From: a virus
Virus record (IMG/VR): IMGVR_UViG_3300025889_000965
Span: 1-23,534 of that record
DNA length: 23,534 nucleotides
Reading direction: 5' to 3' (one strand)
Of the stretch, positions 18,157 through 23,500 are shown piece by piece. The position numbers and the translations under genes were made by a program. Position 1 is the first letter of the stretch; each line of letters starts with the position of its first letter. The notes under the pieces are model-generated. The model made no database searches. It was given only the letters and a program-made list of their open reading frames with translations, and had not been told where the DNA came from.

Positions 18157-18436
18157 ACAGTGCCTCCGCTAATTGGAACGGTGGGTCTTCACTCGGTGGG
18201 AGTTTCATCTGGCACGTCTTGTCCATAGGCCAGCGCGGCGTTGTGGTGAGAGTCCACCCAGGCTCCCCCTTGATGCGTGACAGCACCGCTTGTTGTTTAG
18301 CCGTGCCATACCCCTCCGGCATGATGTAGGGTATGTACAGGCTGTAGGCTTCAACGAGCTTGTCCTCGACAGAGTGCCAGCTCCGCCCCTCACCGAGGGG
18401 CTTGGGTACCTCCGGTACCGCGTCATGCTGGGACAT
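18140..18436 (-). CDS. Unknown protein, tandem paralogue B (98 aa)
   Basis: Start ATG 18436 (MSQHDAVPEVPKPLGEG) has GGGGGAG about seven bases upstream and overlaps the VWA gene by 14 nt. It contains KLVEAYSLYIPYIMPEGYGTAKQQAVLSRI (quoted in part: YIPYIMPEGYG), GWTLTTTPRWPMDKTCQMKLPP and ends PPFQLAEALYDAAK. The C-terminus resembles paralogue A. I do not recognise a named family. It follows the VWA gene directly and could be co-translated with it, but I have no evidence that it belongs to that module. Confidence 0.68.
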   Translation of the reverse strand: MSQHDAVPEVPKPLGEGRSWHSVEDKLVEAYSLYIPYIMPEGYGTAKQQAVLSRIKGEPGWTLTTTPRWPMDKTCQMKLPPSEDPPFQLAEALYDAAK

Positions 18437-19634
18437 ACAGCGTCTCCCCCACCGGGGCGCGGAGCCCCTTGGTGCTGATGCACCACAGCGTCGGGTGCTT
18501 GAGGTCCGCAGGCCACGGCGTGTAGCCATCGGTGAAGACGATCACCGCGTTGGGGTTCAGCCCCCGCTGGTCGATGAAGTTGAACAGGGCCCGCACGTCG
18601 GTACCCCCGCCGCCCTTGGGCTTCGTCGCCTTGACGATGTCCTGCACCCGCTCGCCCTCGTAGGACTCGTGTGCTGCGACCGCCCAGTCCCAATAGATCA
18701 CGTCGACCATCTGCGGAGTGACGGCCTCGCAGGCTGCGGCGACCTCGCTCAGTGCACGTCGGAGTTGCTCGTCGCCAATCGAGCCGCTGGTGTCTATGCC
18801 GATGACGATGCGGTCGACCGCTTCTGTGTACCGGGAGGGGAGGTAGAGATCCTGCCCGAGCCAGCGTCGAGCGGGCCGAGCCCACGTCGACAAGTCGCCG
18901 CCCTTGGCGGTGTTGGTCAGCCAGTCACGCAGCACGTCCTGCCAGGGCACCACAGGCTCAAGGAGAGCCTCGATGTCACGGGACATGCCAGCACCCGTCT
19001 TGCCTGCGATCAGCGCCCCTTGGCGCAGCGCGTTGTCGACAGCCTTGGCTACCTCCTCGGCCTCGGCCTGAGTCAGAGGTGCAGGTCCACCCTCTTCACC
19101 GTCGCCGTCCCCGTCGCCCGCCGCAGGCTGATGCTGGTCGAACTGCTGACCCTTGGGGCTGTTGCCACTGCCGCCCCCGCCGCCCTGCGGCTTGGACTGC
19201 GCCTGTTGTTTGAGCCGCCTGTACACCTCACCGGTGTCCAGCCCATCGTACTGCGGGTCACAGTACGCGTTCTCCCAGATGGTGATGAACTGCCCACCCG
19301 GGTCCATCGACTTGAGCATGTTGTTGATCACCATGTCCTTGGCGATGTTGGACAGTTGCGCGTCGTCCTTGTCGAGCTTGGCCCAGGTCGTCATGTGCAT
19401 CAACATCACGTGGAAGTACTCGTGCAAGACAACAAACCTTAACAACCTATCATCACATTGATTGACGAAGGCTCGGCCATAAAAGACGTCACGTCCGTTG
19501 GTTGCCGCAGTGGGCACGTCGTCCACCACTTGCCATGAGCCGACCATCAGGATCGGTGAGATGGCGGTGAAGCGCTCGTCGCGCATGATCTTGCTACGGG
19601 CCTTGGTGATGCGCTCTTCTGCTGTCAGGTTCAT
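18423..19634 (-). CDS. VWA protein with metallopeptidase-like N-terminus (CobT-like, DUF2201/VWA-like)
   Basis: 403 aa. The N-terminal part has HEYFHVMLMH (H71, E72, H75), a zinc-metallopeptidase HExxH motif within a region like the putative metallopeptidase domain (PF13203). A Gly/Gln/Asp-rich linker (about 147-188) follows. The C-terminal VWA domain has the MIDAS motif DTSGS (D281-S285), GGTD (T345, D346) and FTDG (D369), so a metal-ion-dependent adhesion site is intact. The combination is the VWA-like/DUF2201 family, which typically works with a MoxR-type AAA+ ATPase; that ATPase is encoded just upstream (19879-20940). Whether the HExxH site is active is unknown; in relatives it may bind metal or act as a scaffold. 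Start ATG 19634 overlaps the previous stop as ATGA. Confidence 0.88.
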   Translation of the reverse strand: MNLTAEERITKARSKIMRDERFTAISPILMVGSWQVVDDVPTAATNGRDVFYGRAFVNQCDDRLLRFVVLHEYFHVMLMHMTTWAKLDKDDAQLSNIAKDMVINNMLKSMDPGGQFITIWENAYCDPQYDGLDTGEVYRRLKQQAQSKPQGGGGGSGNSPKGQQFDQHQPAAGDGDGDGEEGGPAPLTQAEAEEVAKAVDNALRQGALIAGKTGAGMSRDIEALLEPVVPWQDVLRDWLTNTAKGGDLSTWARPARRWLGQDLYLPSRYTEAVDRIVIGIDTSGSIGDEQLRRALSEVAAACEAVTPQMVDVIYWDWAVAAHESYEGERVQDIVKATKPKGGGGTDVRALFNFIDQRGLNPNAVIVFTDGYTPWPADLKHPTLWCISTKGLRAPVGETLYVPA

Positions 19635-19834
19635 GACAACTCCTCGACGATCCCGCCTTCCGGCATGTTGATGGGCAGTTCACGTAATAGATTCACATAC
19701 ACAAGTCTATCACCTGTGTCAGCGATAGTGCTTGCAAATCGTTCCGCGCTTTCCCTGTCGGGTGAATTGAATATCCAACGAGTGTACGTGTTCTGTCGGT
19801 GGTTGTAGAACTTGGCGAAGTAAAGGTTGGTCAT
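19631..19834 (-). CDS. Small unknown protein between AAA+ and VWA genes (67 aa)
   Basis: Start ATG 19834 (MTNLYFAKFYNHRQ) has AGAGGA five bases upstream in a CTAGAGGA leader; its stop overlaps the VWA start as ATGA. Residues 15-45 (YTRWIFNSPDRESAERFASTIAD) form a strand-helix pair, and the C-terminus is acidic (EGGIVEELS). It has no recognisable motif. Being inserted inside an ATPase-VWA pair, it might be an adaptor or substrate of that module, which is speculation. Confidence 0.65.
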   Translation of the reverse strand: MTNLYFAKFYNHRQNTYTRWIFNSPDRESAERFASTIADTGDRLVYVNLLRELPINMPEGGIVEELS

Positions 19835-19845
19835 AGTGGTCCTCT

Positions 19846-19863
19846 AGCCCCCGTGAGGGGGCG
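19846..19863 (-). other. GC hairpin before CTAGAGGA leader
   Basis: The sequence GCCCCCGTGAGGGGGC (19847-19862) is a 6-bp perfect inverted repeat with a 4-nt loop. On the minus strand it comes immediately before CTAGAGGACC and the start codon of the 67-aa gene. Confidence 0.6.
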
Positions 19864-19878
19864 GGTTGTGGTGGGTTA

Positions 19879-20940
19879 TCAGCCCATGATCCAGTTGTTA
19901 GCCGTGCACCACTTGGTGAATGAGGCGTTCAGGGCTGCAAACTTCGCACGCTGCGGGATACGCAGGAACTGGTTGACGAACACTGCTTGCAGCTCCATCG
20001 GCAAGCGCTTCATGTACACCATGACGGCGTCGAGCGTGTCCTCTGTGGTGCGAGTGATCGCACGGTGCACCAGCATCATGCACATCGTCGGCGTGTCGGG
20101 CACCGGGGCTTGGAGCGGGCTCGTCACGATCGCCCTCCACGAGGGCAGCTTGTTGCCCATCTGCACGTAGACGTGCAGATCAGCGGCGGCGCGAGCGCCG
20201 ATCAGGCCAGCGAGCAGGCCCCGCATGGTGTCGTCATCGAGGTGCTCGGCGTCGTTGAGCACGCGACCGGCAGCGGTCATGCTGCGCGGAGAGCAGAAGG
20301 CCTTGCGACTCGGGTCCTTGCGGTGCCAGATGTAGGGGTTCTGGTCCGGGTTGGCCACGGTGTCGTCGTCGGCCAGCACCTGCGGGGTCTCATCCACCCA
20401 CGCCAGGACGGCGGGGTTGCCGTCGTTGGCCAGCGAGTAGTTCTTGTACTCCTCGACGGTGGGCTTGCGCATCGCGATCACCGACATGCGGTTGCGGACA
20501 TGCAACTGGAGCGTGTCACCCACACCCTCGGAGCTGAGGTTCGTGGTACAAAAAACAACGCTATCTCCGACAGAATTGTCTCTGGGAAGTGGACGGTTCC
20601 CCACCCGGCGGTCGAGCACGACGGGGAGCAGTGCGTTCTGAACACTGCGCGGAGCCTTACCGAACTCGTCCAGGCAGATGACGACAGGCTGTTCGCCATG
20701 CACACCGAACACCTCGTTGGGATAGAAGGTGCTGGTCCCCGTGGTGTGGTTGACGCTCGGGATCTGAATGTCACCCACGTCGATCTGGGTGCAGTCGATG
20801 TACACCTTGCGGTGCGCCGGCATGTTGAGCATGCCGAGGATGGAGGACTTGCCCGAGCCCGAGGGGCCCTCGATCAGGACGGTGGTGTGCTGGCCGACGG
20901 CGTTGATGGCGGCGGCGCATTGGTTGATGCTGAGCTTCAT
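19879..20940 (-). CDS. MoxR/CobS-like AAA+ ATPase
   Basis: 353 aa. GPSGSGKSS (Walker A, residues 25-33), VVICLDEFGKAP (Walker B, D91/E92), CTTN (sensor 1, 131-134) and HVRNRM (arginine-finger-like R149/R151) mark an AAA+ ATPase of the MoxR/CobS type. Proteins of this type use ATP to remodel or load metal/cofactor into a partner, usually together with a VWA protein; in cobalamin synthesis CobS pairs with CobT. The VWA partner is encoded 45-245 nt downstream, and a DUF3150 protein upstream. Start ATG 20940 has the leader CTAGGAAGCACATC. The C-terminal 150 residues are less conserved and end with CTANNWIMG, a possible partner-recognition region. Confidence 0.88.
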   Translation of the reverse strand: MKLSINQCAAAINAVGQHTTVLIEGPSGSGKSSILGMLNMPAHRKVYIDCTQIDVGDIQIPSVNHTTGTSTFYPNEVFGVHGEQPVVICLDEFGKAPRSVQNALLPVVLDRRVGNRPLPRDNSVGDSVVFCTTNLSSEGVGDTLQLHVRNRMSVIAMRKPTVEEYKNYSLANDGNPAVLAWVDETPQVLADDDTVANPDQNPYIWHRKDPSRKAFCSPRSMTAAGRVLNDAEHLDDDTMRGLLAGLIGARAAADLHVYVQMGNKLPSWRAIVTSPLQAPVPDTPTMCMMLVHRAITRTTEDTLDAVMVYMKRLPMELQAVFVNQFLRIPQRAKFAALNASFTKWCTANNWIMG

Positions 20941-20982
20941 GATGTGCTTCCTAGAGGTTTAACCCGGGCCTTGCCCGGGCGG
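20936..20982 (-). promoter_or_regulatory. Repeated CTAGGA leader and GC hairpin before the AAA+ gene
   Basis: The leader CTAGGAAGCACATCATG is repeated exactly upstream of the 66-aa gene (21182-21202); including flanking bases 21 nt are identical. Behind it, on the far side from the start, CCCGGGC-AAG-GCCCGGG (20963-20979) forms a 7-bp hairpin. Confidence 0.6.
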
Positions 20983-20985
20983 GGT

Positions 20986-21186
20986 TTACTTGACGAAGTT
21001 ATCCTTGGTCCAAATGACGAGCATACGAGCGTCAAGCACGGCGTCTTTAACGGACTCGAAATACTCGGGGGAGAACTCCATCATTGGGTTCTCTGACATC
21101 AGGTAGCGCTCCAGATCTGTGCTCGCAGCGGAGAGAAGGCGGTCGATTTCGCGCACAGCGTCTTGGATGTTGTCGGGTTGTTTCAT
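20986..21186 (-). CDS. Small helical protein in the AAA+/VWA module (66 aa)
   Basis: Start ATG 21186 (MKQPDNIQDAVREID) uses the repeated CTAGGAAGCACATC leader, which the longer frame lacks. The protein is helical and acidic (RLLSAASTDLERYLM, EYFESVKDAVLDARMLVIW), with no membrane segment. It is unknown, and lies between DUF3150 and the AAA+ ATPase. Its shared leader with the ATPase gene suggests co-regulation. Confidence 0.65.
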   Translation of the reverse strand: MKQPDNIQDAVREIDRLLSAASTDLERYLMSENPMMEFSPEYFESVKDAVLDARMLVIWTKDNFVK

Positions 21187-21236
21187 GATGTGCTTCCTAG
21201 AGATTGATTTACTGGTAAAGGGGCCGAAGCCCCGGG
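21182..21236 (-). promoter_or_regulatory. Leader with CTAGGA repeat, TTTACTGGTAAA palindrome and UUCG hairpin
   Basis: From the start codon outwards on the minus strand: CTAGGAAGCACATC (21-nt repeat 21182-21202), the 12-bp palindrome (21208-21219), and a 5-bp stem with a UUCG loop GGGGC-TTCG-GCCCC (21220-21233). The stem is followed by CTTTACC on the minus strand, so it could partly terminate upstream transcription. Confidence 0.55.
21208..21219. promoter_or_regulatory. TTTACTGGTAAA palindrome (copy 2)
   Basis: A 12-bp palindrome between the UUCG hairpin and the CTAGGA leader of the 66-aa gene, 22 nt upstream of its start codon. Confidence 0.6.
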
Positions 21237-21238
21237 GT

Positions 21239-22171
21239 TCAAAGAGCGAACTTGTCGAGGATGTCGTCCATCGCCTGCTTCGTGGCATGCTGGAGTTCAG
21301 GGCTCTCCTTCAGCGAGCCCATGTCGACGCGGGTCAGTGCCCGCTCCAGATCACGCCGCGCTTCCTCAAGGCGCGGGTCGTTGGTGATGTTGAGGTCCGA
21401 CAACATCTTGCACAGCTCAAGGCCCTGTTCGAGCATCGAGTCGTAGAGCTTGGGGCGACGGCGCTTTTTGATCTCGACCGACACCACCGTGCCGGTGTCG
21501 TCAGTCGTGGGGACCTCCTCCACCTCGTCGGGGTCGTACTCAAGCACGGCGGTCATCCTCTCCCGCACCCACTCGACCTGGGACTTCACGCGCTGCCACG
21601 TGTCAGCCACAGCACCGGCCACACGCTCGGCGGTGGCCTTCTCGTACTGCTCAGCGAGGTGACGCTGTGCCTCGTGGCCGATGTCGACCCGGAAGTCGCC
21701 CGACGAAGGCAGTGGGCTGAGGGATAGCCCGAAGCGGAACTTCGCCGCCACCTCATCGGCCAGCGGGTACTCGCTGCGGTCGAAGAGCGAGCCCATCTCG
21801 AAGGCCTGCTTGCTGATGGCCGTGCCATAGGTGGACACGAAGACCTTCACCAGCCCGTTGAACTTGGTTTCAAACTCCGCCACCTTGGCGGTGATGTCGA
21901 GGTACTGGCGGGTGGTGATGAGGCGTGCACGGTTGTCATCCCACGGCAAGGTGCGGGAGTTGAACCACACGCGGGCCTCGCTGCGCAAGGTCTTGATGGC
22001 CTCGAGTTCAGGGCACTCGCTGAACAGGTTCTTCGAGACACTCGCTGCCTTCTTGGACTTGGCACCCTTGGTGGCCAGGACTTCGTCCTTCGTCCGCTTG
22101 TCTTGGATTCGTGCTTCCCATACAGATATGTTGAGGCTGCCGAGCATGGCGGCGGTGGTGATGTCGATCAT
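21239..22171 (-). CDS. DUF3150-type protein, partner of AAA+/VWA module
   Basis: 310 aa. The start ATG 22171 (MIDITTAAMLGSLNISVWEAR) has GGAG six bases upstream. The N-terminus (IQDKRTKDEVLATKGAKSKKAASVSKNLF) is followed by ELEAIKTLRSEARVWFNSRTLPWDDN, then ARLITTRQYLDITAKVAEFETKF (motifs in parts). This is the layout of DUF3150 proteins, which start with a short basic segment and an IKTLRSE...W..RTLPWDD core. The C-terminal half is highly charged and helical, with likely coiled coil. DUF3150 genes are commonly found beside CobS-like ATPase and CobT-like VWA genes in phages, plasmids and integrative elements; here they are again in the same order. Its biochemical role is unknown. Family call rests on motif memory. 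Confidence 0.75.
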   Translation of the reverse strand: MIDITTAAMLGSLNISVWEARIQDKRTKDEVLATKGAKSKKAASVSKNLFSECPELEAIKTLRSEARVWFNSRTLPWDDNRARLITTRQYLDITAKVAEFETKFNGLVKVFVSTYGTAISKQAFEMGSLFDRSEYPLADEVAAKFRFGLSLSPLPSSGDFRVDIGHEAQRHLAEQYEKATAERVAGAVADTWQRVKSQVEWVRERMTAVLEYDPDEVEEVPTTDDTGTVVSVEIKKRRRPKLYDSMLEQGLELCKMLSDLNITNDPRLEEARRDLERALTRVDMGSLKESPELQHATKQAMDDILDKFAL

Positions 22172-22210: not shown

Positions 22211-22441
22211 TTAATTAAACGTGATGAAACACACGAGGCATTCCCCGTGCGGGCGGAGTTCGATCATGTCGCCATGATCGACGGTGACGGTGCGCTTACC
22301 CGTCCAACCCACGGCGTGCTTGGCACGTCGCACGATGCTGTACCTGCTCAAGGCGTCGGGGGCTTCGAGCGTGGCACGCTTGACCCAACCGTAGTTGGGT
22401 TCGTGACCGAACGTGTCGGTCACTTCGATGTTGATGTTCAT
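22211..22441 (-). CDS. Small unknown protein (76 aa)
   Basis: Start ATG 22441 (MNINIEVTDTFGHEPNYGW) has AGAGGA at five bases. The protein is strand-rich: residues 1-45 contain NYGWVKRATLEAP and ALSRYSIVRRAKHAVGW, and the end has RTVTVDHGDMIELRP and CLVCFITFN. A similar arrangement of N-terminal strand, WVKRAT and RRAKHAVGW.GKRT is known to me from phage hypothetical proteins. No membrane or metal signature is certain, though C-x2-C (LVC) occurs near the end. The 12-bp palindrome lies 14 nt upstream of its start. Confidence 0.68.
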   Translation of the reverse strand: MNINIEVTDTFGHEPNYGWVKRATLEAPDALSRYSIVRRAKHAVGWTGKRTVTVDHGDMIELRPHGECLVCFITFN

Positions 22442-22469: not shown

Positions 22470-22679
22470 TCAGCGGAACAGTCCGCCCTTGTTGTTGATG
22501 CCATGCAGGTCCCGCTTGTCGGTCAAGAGCACGTAGTTCGATTTGTGCATGGGCACCACCGTCCAGCTCTTGCGCTCTTGTCGAGCGTCCTCCTCACCAC
22601 ACCACAGGCAGAGCCTGTAGCCGAGGGCGGTACGCCGGGGGTCGATGTCGTCCCCGCAGCGGGGGCATGTGTTCGTCAT
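22470..22679 (-). CDS. Small zinc-finger protein (69 aa)
   Basis: Start ATG 22679 (MTNTCPRCGDDIDPRR) has AAGGA five bases upstream. C5 and C8 (CPRCG) with C24 and C27 (CLWCGE) form a four-cysteine zinc ribbon with 15-residue spacing, a little like the TraR/DksA-type pattern (C..CG..I...R......C..CG). The remaining part has SWTVVPMHKSNYVLLTDKRD and ends with a basic NNKGGLFR. Close relatives are common in phages, unnamed. Likely binds nucleic acid or a host polymerase; that is inference. Confidence 0.78.
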   Translation of the reverse strand: MTNTCPRCGDDIDPRRTALGYRLCLWCGEEDARQERKSWTVVPMHKSNYVLLTDKRDLHGINNKGGLFR

Positions 22680-22882: not shown

Positions 22883-23500
22883 TCAGTACCTCTTGACCTT
22901 CTCGACGATGGTGGTCACGCCGTTGCCGGGGGTGTAGCACAGCAGGCAGTCAGCACACTTCTGCCCGGTGCAGTTCTGCTGGTCTACGTGCTCGTGCTCC
23001 AGCACGTTGTTGAACGTGCGGTCGAAGTGCTTCGGCGGGCGCTTCATGATGCTGCTGATCTTGGGGTTGCTGTAGATCAGGATCAGGTTGGCGGGCTTCG
23101 GCGTGGTACGGAAGAACTTCGACACGATGTCGTTGCGCTTGGTCCACAGGGCGAAGGACGTGCGCGGGTTGCGCTCGCAGATGAGCACGAGGTTCTGCAA
23201 GTGTGTGTCGTTGATCAGCTCCCCGTGCGCGTCGAAGCGGAAATACGCGTCCGTGATGCGCGGCAGTTCTGCCTCCGCCAGAACCCGCGAAGCGAGGGCG
23301 TCGCTGTTGCGTTGGAGGGCTGGCTGCATGTTCTTCCGATAGGAAGACAGCATGGTGTGGCTGTAGCACTTGGTGCAGATGTTGTCTGCGTCGCCCGAGG
23401 CGTTCTGCTTGATGCAGTACGGGTTGGTGCGCGTGTTGGTGCTGATGGCACGCAGGCCGTCCAACTTGCCCGTCATGGTCGAGATGTGGATAACGTTCAT
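22883..23500 (-). CDS. GP88-like Cys-rich phage protein (205 aa)
   Basis: Start ATG 23500 (MNVIHISTMTGKLDGL) has AAGGAG about ten bases upstream; the 12-bp palindrome lies 17-28 nt upstream of the ATG. Cysteines C29, C42 and C45 near the N-terminus (PYCIK, ICTKCYSH) and C177, C182, C185 and C188 near the C-terminus (NCTGQKCADCLLCYTP) form two metal-binding-like clusters. The CTKCY...N..AL layout and second cluster resemble the GP88 family (named after mycobacteriophage gene 88), which may relate to iron-sulfur or radical-SAM-like proteins. Function is not known to me. The middle has NPRTSFALWTKRNDIVSKFF and NLILIYSNPK, a strand-helix-strand segment. It is the first complete gene of the transcription unit seen here. 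Confidence 0.5.
   Translation of the reverse strand: MNVIHISTMTGKLDGLRAISTNTRTNPYCIKQNASGDADNICTKCYSHTMLSSYRKNMQPALQRNSDALASRVLAEAELPRITDAYFRFDAHGELINDTHLQNLVLICERNPRTSFALWTKRNDIVSKFFRTTPKPANLILIYSNPKISSIMKRPPKHFDRTFNNVLEHEHVDQQNCTGQKCADCLLCYTPGNGVTTIVEKVKRY

Follow-up and report, generated by a model that had tools for sequence, protein, structure and literature searches.

The viral sequence IMGVR_UViG_3300025889_000965 from IMG/VR, a virus record of 23,534 bases that was analyzed over its full length (hereafter the window), carries a cluster of three genes encoding a distant DUF3150-like protein, an AAA+ ATPase of the MoxR/midasin type and a VWA protein with a metallopeptidase-like N-terminal domain. 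These genes lie on the minus strand exactly where a preliminary description, prepared without database searches, had located them (Table 1). The order on this strand is a 76-amino-acid (AA) open reading frame (ORF), the DUF3150-like gene, a 66-AA ORF, the ATPase gene, a 67-AA ORF and the VWA gene. Since the intergenic gaps measure about 40 to 50 bases and the last two genes share 4 bases, the layout suggests a single operon. The trio is followed by genes for DNA polymerase A, a PD-(D/E)XK nuclease, an exonuclease, an SNF2 helicase and a DUF927 primase/helicase-type protein. For all three genes, the ratio of nonsynonymous to synonymous substitution rates (dN/dS) against close relatives is 0.12-0.26, indicating purifying selection.

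Table 1. Features of the gene cluster and its upstream neighbors in the window, listed in minus-strand order
Feature	Position	Strand	Basis or remark
69-AA CxxC zinc-ribbon-like ORF, upstream	22470..22679	-	Constant neighbor within the viral lineage
76-AA ORF, phrog_22729, upstream of the DUF3150-like gene	22211..22441	-	Constant neighbor within the viral lineage
DUF3150-like protein, 310 AA	21239..22171	-	ORF; predicted helical, with a pair of long coiled helices plus a small beta sheet
66-AA spacer ORF	20986..21186	-	ORF; no Pfam family above cut-off
AAA+ ATPase of MoxR/midasin type, 353 AA, phrog_1297	19879..20940	-	Pfam and PHROG matches
Walker A of the ATPase (GPSGSGKS, residues 25-32)	20845..20868	-	Sequence
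Walker B of the ATPase (residues 87-92, last two DE)	20665..20682	-	Sequence
67-AA spacer ORF	19631..19834	-	ORF; 4-base overlap with the start of the VWA gene
DUF2201_N metallopeptidase-like and DUF2201 VWA protein, 403 AA, phrog_1314	18423..19634	-	Pfam and PHROG matches
HExxH motif HEYFH (residues 71-75) of the VWA protein	19410..19424	-	Sequence
MIDAS motif 1 DTSGS (residues 281-285) of the VWA protein	18780..18794	-	Sequence

Judged by its sequence, the ATPase is an AAA+ protein of the MoxR/midasin type. It scores 24.3 bits against AAA_5 (Pfam cut-off 22.0) and matches phrog_1297 in the PHROG search (2e-47), and a profile search against the PDB returned midasin as the best match (4e-49), with MoxR (2r44, 3e-9) and NorQ (7e-9) further down. 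The conservation of its motifs was scored on an alignment of 24 family sequences, in which G25 and K31 of the intact Walker A (G25..K31S32), the sensor-1 residue N134 and R219 are invariant. Walker B is slightly more variable (D91 in 23 and E92 in 20 sequences), R151 is retained in 23 sequences and the pair P218R219 is conserved. All features of the AAA_5/MoxR class, namely Walker A and B, sensor 1, arginine finger and sensor 2, are present, in agreement with the earlier claim that Walker A, Walker B (D91E92) and sensor 1 are kept.

The preliminary description had proposed a search against DUF2201 profiles, in which both halves of the VWA protein scored above the Pfam cut-off: PF13203 (DUF2201_N) reached 105.8 bits (cut-off 23.2, E = 4e-30) and PF09967 (DUF2201 VWA-like) 67.2 bits (cut-off 26.4, E = 1.9e-18). 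The protein also matches phrog_1314 (4e-86, PHROG search). In an alignment of 24 sequences, all five positions of the complete metal-ion-dependent adhesion site (MIDAS; D281-x-S283-x-S285, T345, D369) are present throughout, and the residues H71, E72 and H75 of the HExxH motif are found in 23 sequences and H80 in all 24. A further motif, N96-x3-D100-x3-N104, is retained together with HExxH, with N96 and D100 in 23 of the sequences. Both the HExxH site and the full MIDAS are therefore kept as described earlier and, with catalytic and MIDAS residues intact, all parts of the module look active. The HExxH domain may represent a putative zinc-protease-like site. The VWA half of the AlphaFold model resembles the MIDAS domain of MDN1 (8ql1) and NorD of NorQD (9qhd); the two AlphaFold models obtained here are single chains of moderate confidence, with a predicted local distance difference test (pLDDT) score of 75-76. 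As the VWA domain extends to residue 399 of 403, the protein has no effector domain.

In the VWA copy of Paraburkholderia sp. UYCP14C (L102:6452-7786), HExxH is changed to LKVMQ and the N-D-N motif is gone, H80 and the MIDAS being kept, which makes this copy a candidate for a natural protease-dead member. The label 'HNH endonuclease' given to the VWA protein in PHROG and RefSeq was rejected and looks like an annotation error propagated over many N4-like phages. Members of phrog_1314 are also labelled 'homing endonuclease' (e.g. L002:8290-9459 and L003:9958-11142).

The assignment of the third protein to DUF3150 is the weakest of the three. With 17.4 bits against a gathering cut-off of 24.9 (E = 0.003), it does not reach the formal threshold of PF11348, which was matched at E <= 0.1 by seven of its 26 relatives (best 4.6e-6). 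Comparisons of profiles and predicted folds point to kinship. Phage and plasmid DUF3150-like proteins, combined into one profile, align co-linearly in hhalign with the DUF3150 family of the IncC type (probability 95.9, E = 6e-9), and a profile of mainly phage and Burkholderiales members does so at a probability of 88.2 (E = 3e-6). The best Foldseek match of the AlphaFold model (pLDDT 76) is A0A6J7WV52 from BFVD, a phage protein named DUF3150 (E = 3.6e-15, template modelling scores 0.67/0.70), the matches being predicted viral proteins. No relative was found in a structure search of the PDB with the same model (best E = 0.52), and weak profile matches to apolipoprotein and CheA were discarded since they look like noise from helix composition. 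The membership in DUF3150 that had been suggested earlier thus fails at the Pfam cut-off and stands at the level of probable distant homology. PF11348 gave no match on Burkholderiales genomes although the DUF3150-like gene is present there, so an absence according to this profile means little. The term DUF3150 was not found in the literature searched, which covered the papers in part.

The idea that the three genes form a module is borne out by their constant company. When viral contigs were scanned with the DUF3150-like protein, 22 were retrieved, and in all 17 that reach far enough the ATPase and then the VWA gene follow DUF3150 in the same order; these contigs are fragments, and the other five stop at a contig edge and were excluded from the 17. 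The order ATPase-DUF3150-VWA was found in cyanophage MinM2, a further viral contig (L062), Rhodovastum and plasmid-type loci of Burkholderiales. The last were identified by a contig search with one plasmid DUF3150-like protein as the query; the VWA gene lies beside DUF3150 in 33 of 33 and the ATPase gene in 32, the exception beginning at a contig end. The Burkholderiales plasmid trio (pBMC401, pRK1-1) consists of directly adjacent genes whose ATPase, VWA and DUF3150-like families are those of the window, but differs from the DUF3150-ATPase-VWA order of the window and has a DUF3150-like protein of only about 25-27% identity. Because the gene order varies while the company is unbroken, these data argue for a functional link rather than for one segment inherited together. 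The phage-form DUF3150-like gene is almost absent from chromosomes, with one hit among 399 Pseudomonadota species (the query genome itself) and 11 among 150 in the Burkholderia family.

Two observations concern the Burkholderiales loci. The PRTRC (ThiF) cassette, an unexplained plasmid gene set, is found a few kilobases upstream of the plasmid trio (L006:1-2070, L007:1-2246). In Candidatus Burkholderia verschuerenii (L105:1-3552), each of the trio genes is split into two reading frames, as if they were decaying together.

A distant but parallel trio exists on MOBH conjugative plasmids and integrative and conjugative elements (ICEs). The IncC plasmid pSN254 encodes an AAA ATPase with CbbQ_C, followed by ssb, bet and exo, then DUF3150 (305 bits against PF11348) and then a CobT-like VWA protein; this cluster spans 93.6-101.6 kb, with none in the stretches 1-50 kb and 126-176 kb. 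The same arrangement was found on Photobacterium, Pseudomonas, E. coli, Proteus and Aeromonas plasmids and on Rts1 (IncT), nearly always accompanied by ssb and/or recT/bet and exo; on a Pseudomonas veronii plasmid, the stretch read contains the trio but no recT. Of 72,556 plasmid records, 1102 contain the IncC-type DUF3150, and 970 of these 1102 are predicted to be conjugative. A MoxR-VWA cluster had previously been noted in IncP-7, IncH, IncT, SXT and R391 elements in the pCAR1 paper (PMC2642839). The cluster of the MOBH/MPF_F plasmids and SXT/R391 ICEs (s067 and s068; pCAR1 ORF101/ORF103; IncC; Rts1) shares with the window the three-part layout, a DUF3150 that is homologous by profile, and VWA proteins with HExxH and MIDAS, both invariant in the IncC form. 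It differs in its CobS/CbbQ-like ATPase (phrog_249; CbbQ_C), its CobT-like VWA protein of about 600 AA and its site beside ssb-recT-exo and tra genes. The genes s067 and s068 were assigned to DUF3150 and VWA from their order relative to bet/exo and from the counterparts in IncC rather than by direct comparison of the SXT sequence.

The ATPase-VWA pair also occurs without DUF3150, namely in N4-like phages, PA5oct, Thermus phage phiFa and Rhizobium phage RHph_TM3_14A, and on plasmids of Thermus, Synechocystis, Mycobacterium, Rhodothermus and Streptomyces. N4 genes 24 and 25 (vWFA) belong to the 14-gene core shared by N4-like phages and are carried on middle transcripts (PMC4193335). Their products and the MoxR-vWA/metallopeptidase pair of group 2.2 jumbo phages (PMC7824862) resemble the window in their phrog_1297 ATPase and phrog_1314 HExxH-VWA protein (N4-like phages, PA5oct) and differ in that DUF3150 is missing. 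In the N4-like phage Possum, two genes between the ATPase and VWA genes were tested as diverged DUF3150 and rejected.

The small genes between the three conserved ones, which the preliminary description had included, are real ORFs but not a constant part of the module. They were rejected as module parts as they do not follow the trio across related loci: no relatives of the 67-AA ORF were found in the neighbor survey of these loci, so that it is present only in the window, and the 66-AA ORF has weak relatives at a few loci, placed elsewhere in the order (upstream of DUF3150). The 66-AA ORF and the ATPase gene share the leader ctctaggaagcacatcATGAA (20941-20956 and 21187-21202), a possible repeated translation-start element. 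Elsewhere in the window, positions 22883-23500 encode a GP88-family protein (PF17338, 1.2e-8) with a weak DUF5131 match, and positions 20-2899 encode a large plus-strand protein with an LPD38 polyvalent-protein domain in the direction opposite to the replication genes.

Taken together, the module can be interpreted as an ATP-driven MoxR-VWA remodelling machine with DUF3150 as an adaptor, acting on a DNA-bound replication or recombination complex, a reading to which we assign a probability of roughly 45%. This target is favored because replication genes adjoin the trio in the window, annealing-recombination genes accompany it on plasmids and N4 expresses its pair in the middle phase. By analogy with related systems, the AAA+ protein would form a ring-shaped hexameric motor, on which the VWA protein would dock, its MIDAS metal site holding an acidic surface of the target as NorD does for NorQ. 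Either the target or a partner may be cleaved by the HExxH domain at the N-terminus. DUF3150, predicted to be elongated and helical and carrying no enzyme motif, could be the third subunit, an adaptor bringing in a specific target, most probably a complex of proteins bound to the DNA of the element itself or of the host and engaged in replication, recombination or end processing. The machine would dismantle or activate this complex once the DNA has entered, during the middle phase of infection.

Of the roles considered in the preliminary description, that of a chaperone is favored. Midasin and NorQD are both ATPase-MIDAS remodellers; for NorQD, it has been proposed that a finger of the VWA protein plugs the ring and that the MIDAS binds the target, and MIDAS and Walker-B mutants are non-functional (PMC9976466). 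MoxR-VWA pairs such as NorQ-NorD, RavA-ViaA and CbbQ-CbbO, and midasin as a one-chain form, likewise combine an AAA_5-class ATPase with a complete-MIDAS VWA protein, and the window proteins show profile and fold matches to midasin and NorQD. In contrast to these pairs, the window shows an HExxH domain at the N-terminus of the VWA partner and a third conserved gene, DUF3150, and no respiratory, rubisco or ribosome target gene lies nearby. MoxR-VWA pairs as such are already known; what is new is the three-part module of mobile elements.

Several points weigh against the remodelling of DNA-bound complexes by a three-part machine. The proximity to genes for DNA metabolism may have no other cause than shared timing. 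The ATPase-VWA pair does not require DUF3150, because many phages and plasmids hold the pair without it. Cleavage may be dispensable in places and proteolysis is perhaps not general, because HE, H, D and N have all been lost from the putative metal site of the plasmid-type Paraburkholderia member. Transfer of SXT drops 10-fold or less upon deletions of s067, s068, bet and exo (PMC2791158). In Rts1, the VWA gene is split by an IS2 copy (L131:29030-32192), yet the plasmid transfers, and the trio genes are absent from the list of its conjugation genes (PMC10838148); the machine is therefore not essential for laboratory transfer. Rts1 is the IncT prototype for conjugation genetics despite this split gene.

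The main rival, which is possible but clearly less probable, is counter-defence or host takeover, in which the MoxR-DUF3150-VWA machine would strip or cleave a host immunity or nucleoid complex attacking incoming DNA. Arrival as foreign DNA is a problem common to phages and conjugative plasmids, DUF3150-like genes are nearly confined to mobile elements by the counts given above, and the dispensability of the trio in laboratory matings would be expected if it were needed only against some hosts (PMC2791158, PMC10838148). However, purifying selection acts on the genes, which do not show the rapid change that marks arms-race proteins, no convincing match to a defence or anti-defence family was found, and the core status of N4 gp24/gp25 suits a general need better (PMC4193335).

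A role as a virion-assembly chaperone and processing protease, as proposed for the group 2.2 jumbo-phage pairs (PMC7824862), is improbable. The tail assembly of an Acidianus virus is reported to require a MoxR-vWA pair (PMC7824862), the PA5oct ATPase record carries an electrospray ionization tandem mass spectrometry (ESI-MS/MS) note, and a structural cluster of RPP1 lies near its gp24/gp25 homologs (PMC4193335). Nevertheless, the trio is situated in the replication region here and in relatives and not among late structural genes, the N4 gp24/25 transcripts are middle and not late (PMC4193335), and the trio is also present on plasmids, which make no virion.

Metal or cofactor loading, suggested by the earlier comparison with CobS and CobT, is less probable still. 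A CobST-like pair would act with host CobN to raise the cobalamin supply, as has been suggested for tailed viruses of archaea and bacteria (PMC8651126), and the general AAA+/VWA architecture and the IncC-type VWA protein, which lies just over the Pfam CobT cut-off (26.6 vs 26.1), would fit this. However, the kinship did not hold: the window proteins have no match to CobT (PF06213/PF11775) or CobS/CbbQ_C at E <= 10, and the VWA protein is a DUF2201 protein with HExxH. CobN (PF02514) is absent from all eight phage records, which are possibly incomplete, while the control matched in five genomes; the host may still carry a CobN. Cofactor loading is disfavored because of these missing matches and the closeness of the AAA profile to midasin. 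Least probable is a phage-borne defence against rivals (superinfection exclusion), since only the MoxR-vWA-X three-part layout resembles the VMAP and iSTAND ternary conflict systems (PMC7159879), from which the window differs in its third protein, without a match to a VMAP or iSTAND family, and in its VWA architecture, which ends with the VWA domain and lacks an effector, and neither the VWA nor the DUF3150-like protein has a match in PADLOC.

Beyond the remodelling function favored here, it is conceivable, if rather doubtful, that MoxR-DUF3150-HExxH/VWA constitutes a distinct class of three-part, ATP-driven proteolytic machines specific to mobile DNA. Present in lytic phages and in the SXT/R391, IncC and IncT multidrug-resistance elements, such machines would protect or reprogram newly arrived DNA by dismantling host complexes on it, with N4 gp24/gp25 as the two-part version. 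The module links genes that have long lacked an explanation, namely s067/s068 in SXT/R391 with their counterparts in IncC, to the likewise unexplained genes 24 and 25 in the N4-like core and to DUF3150, and N4 on E. coli K-12 offers an easy model for finding the target. If the machine does act on DNA-bound complexes at entry or replication, this would explain why unrelated mobile elements keep it.

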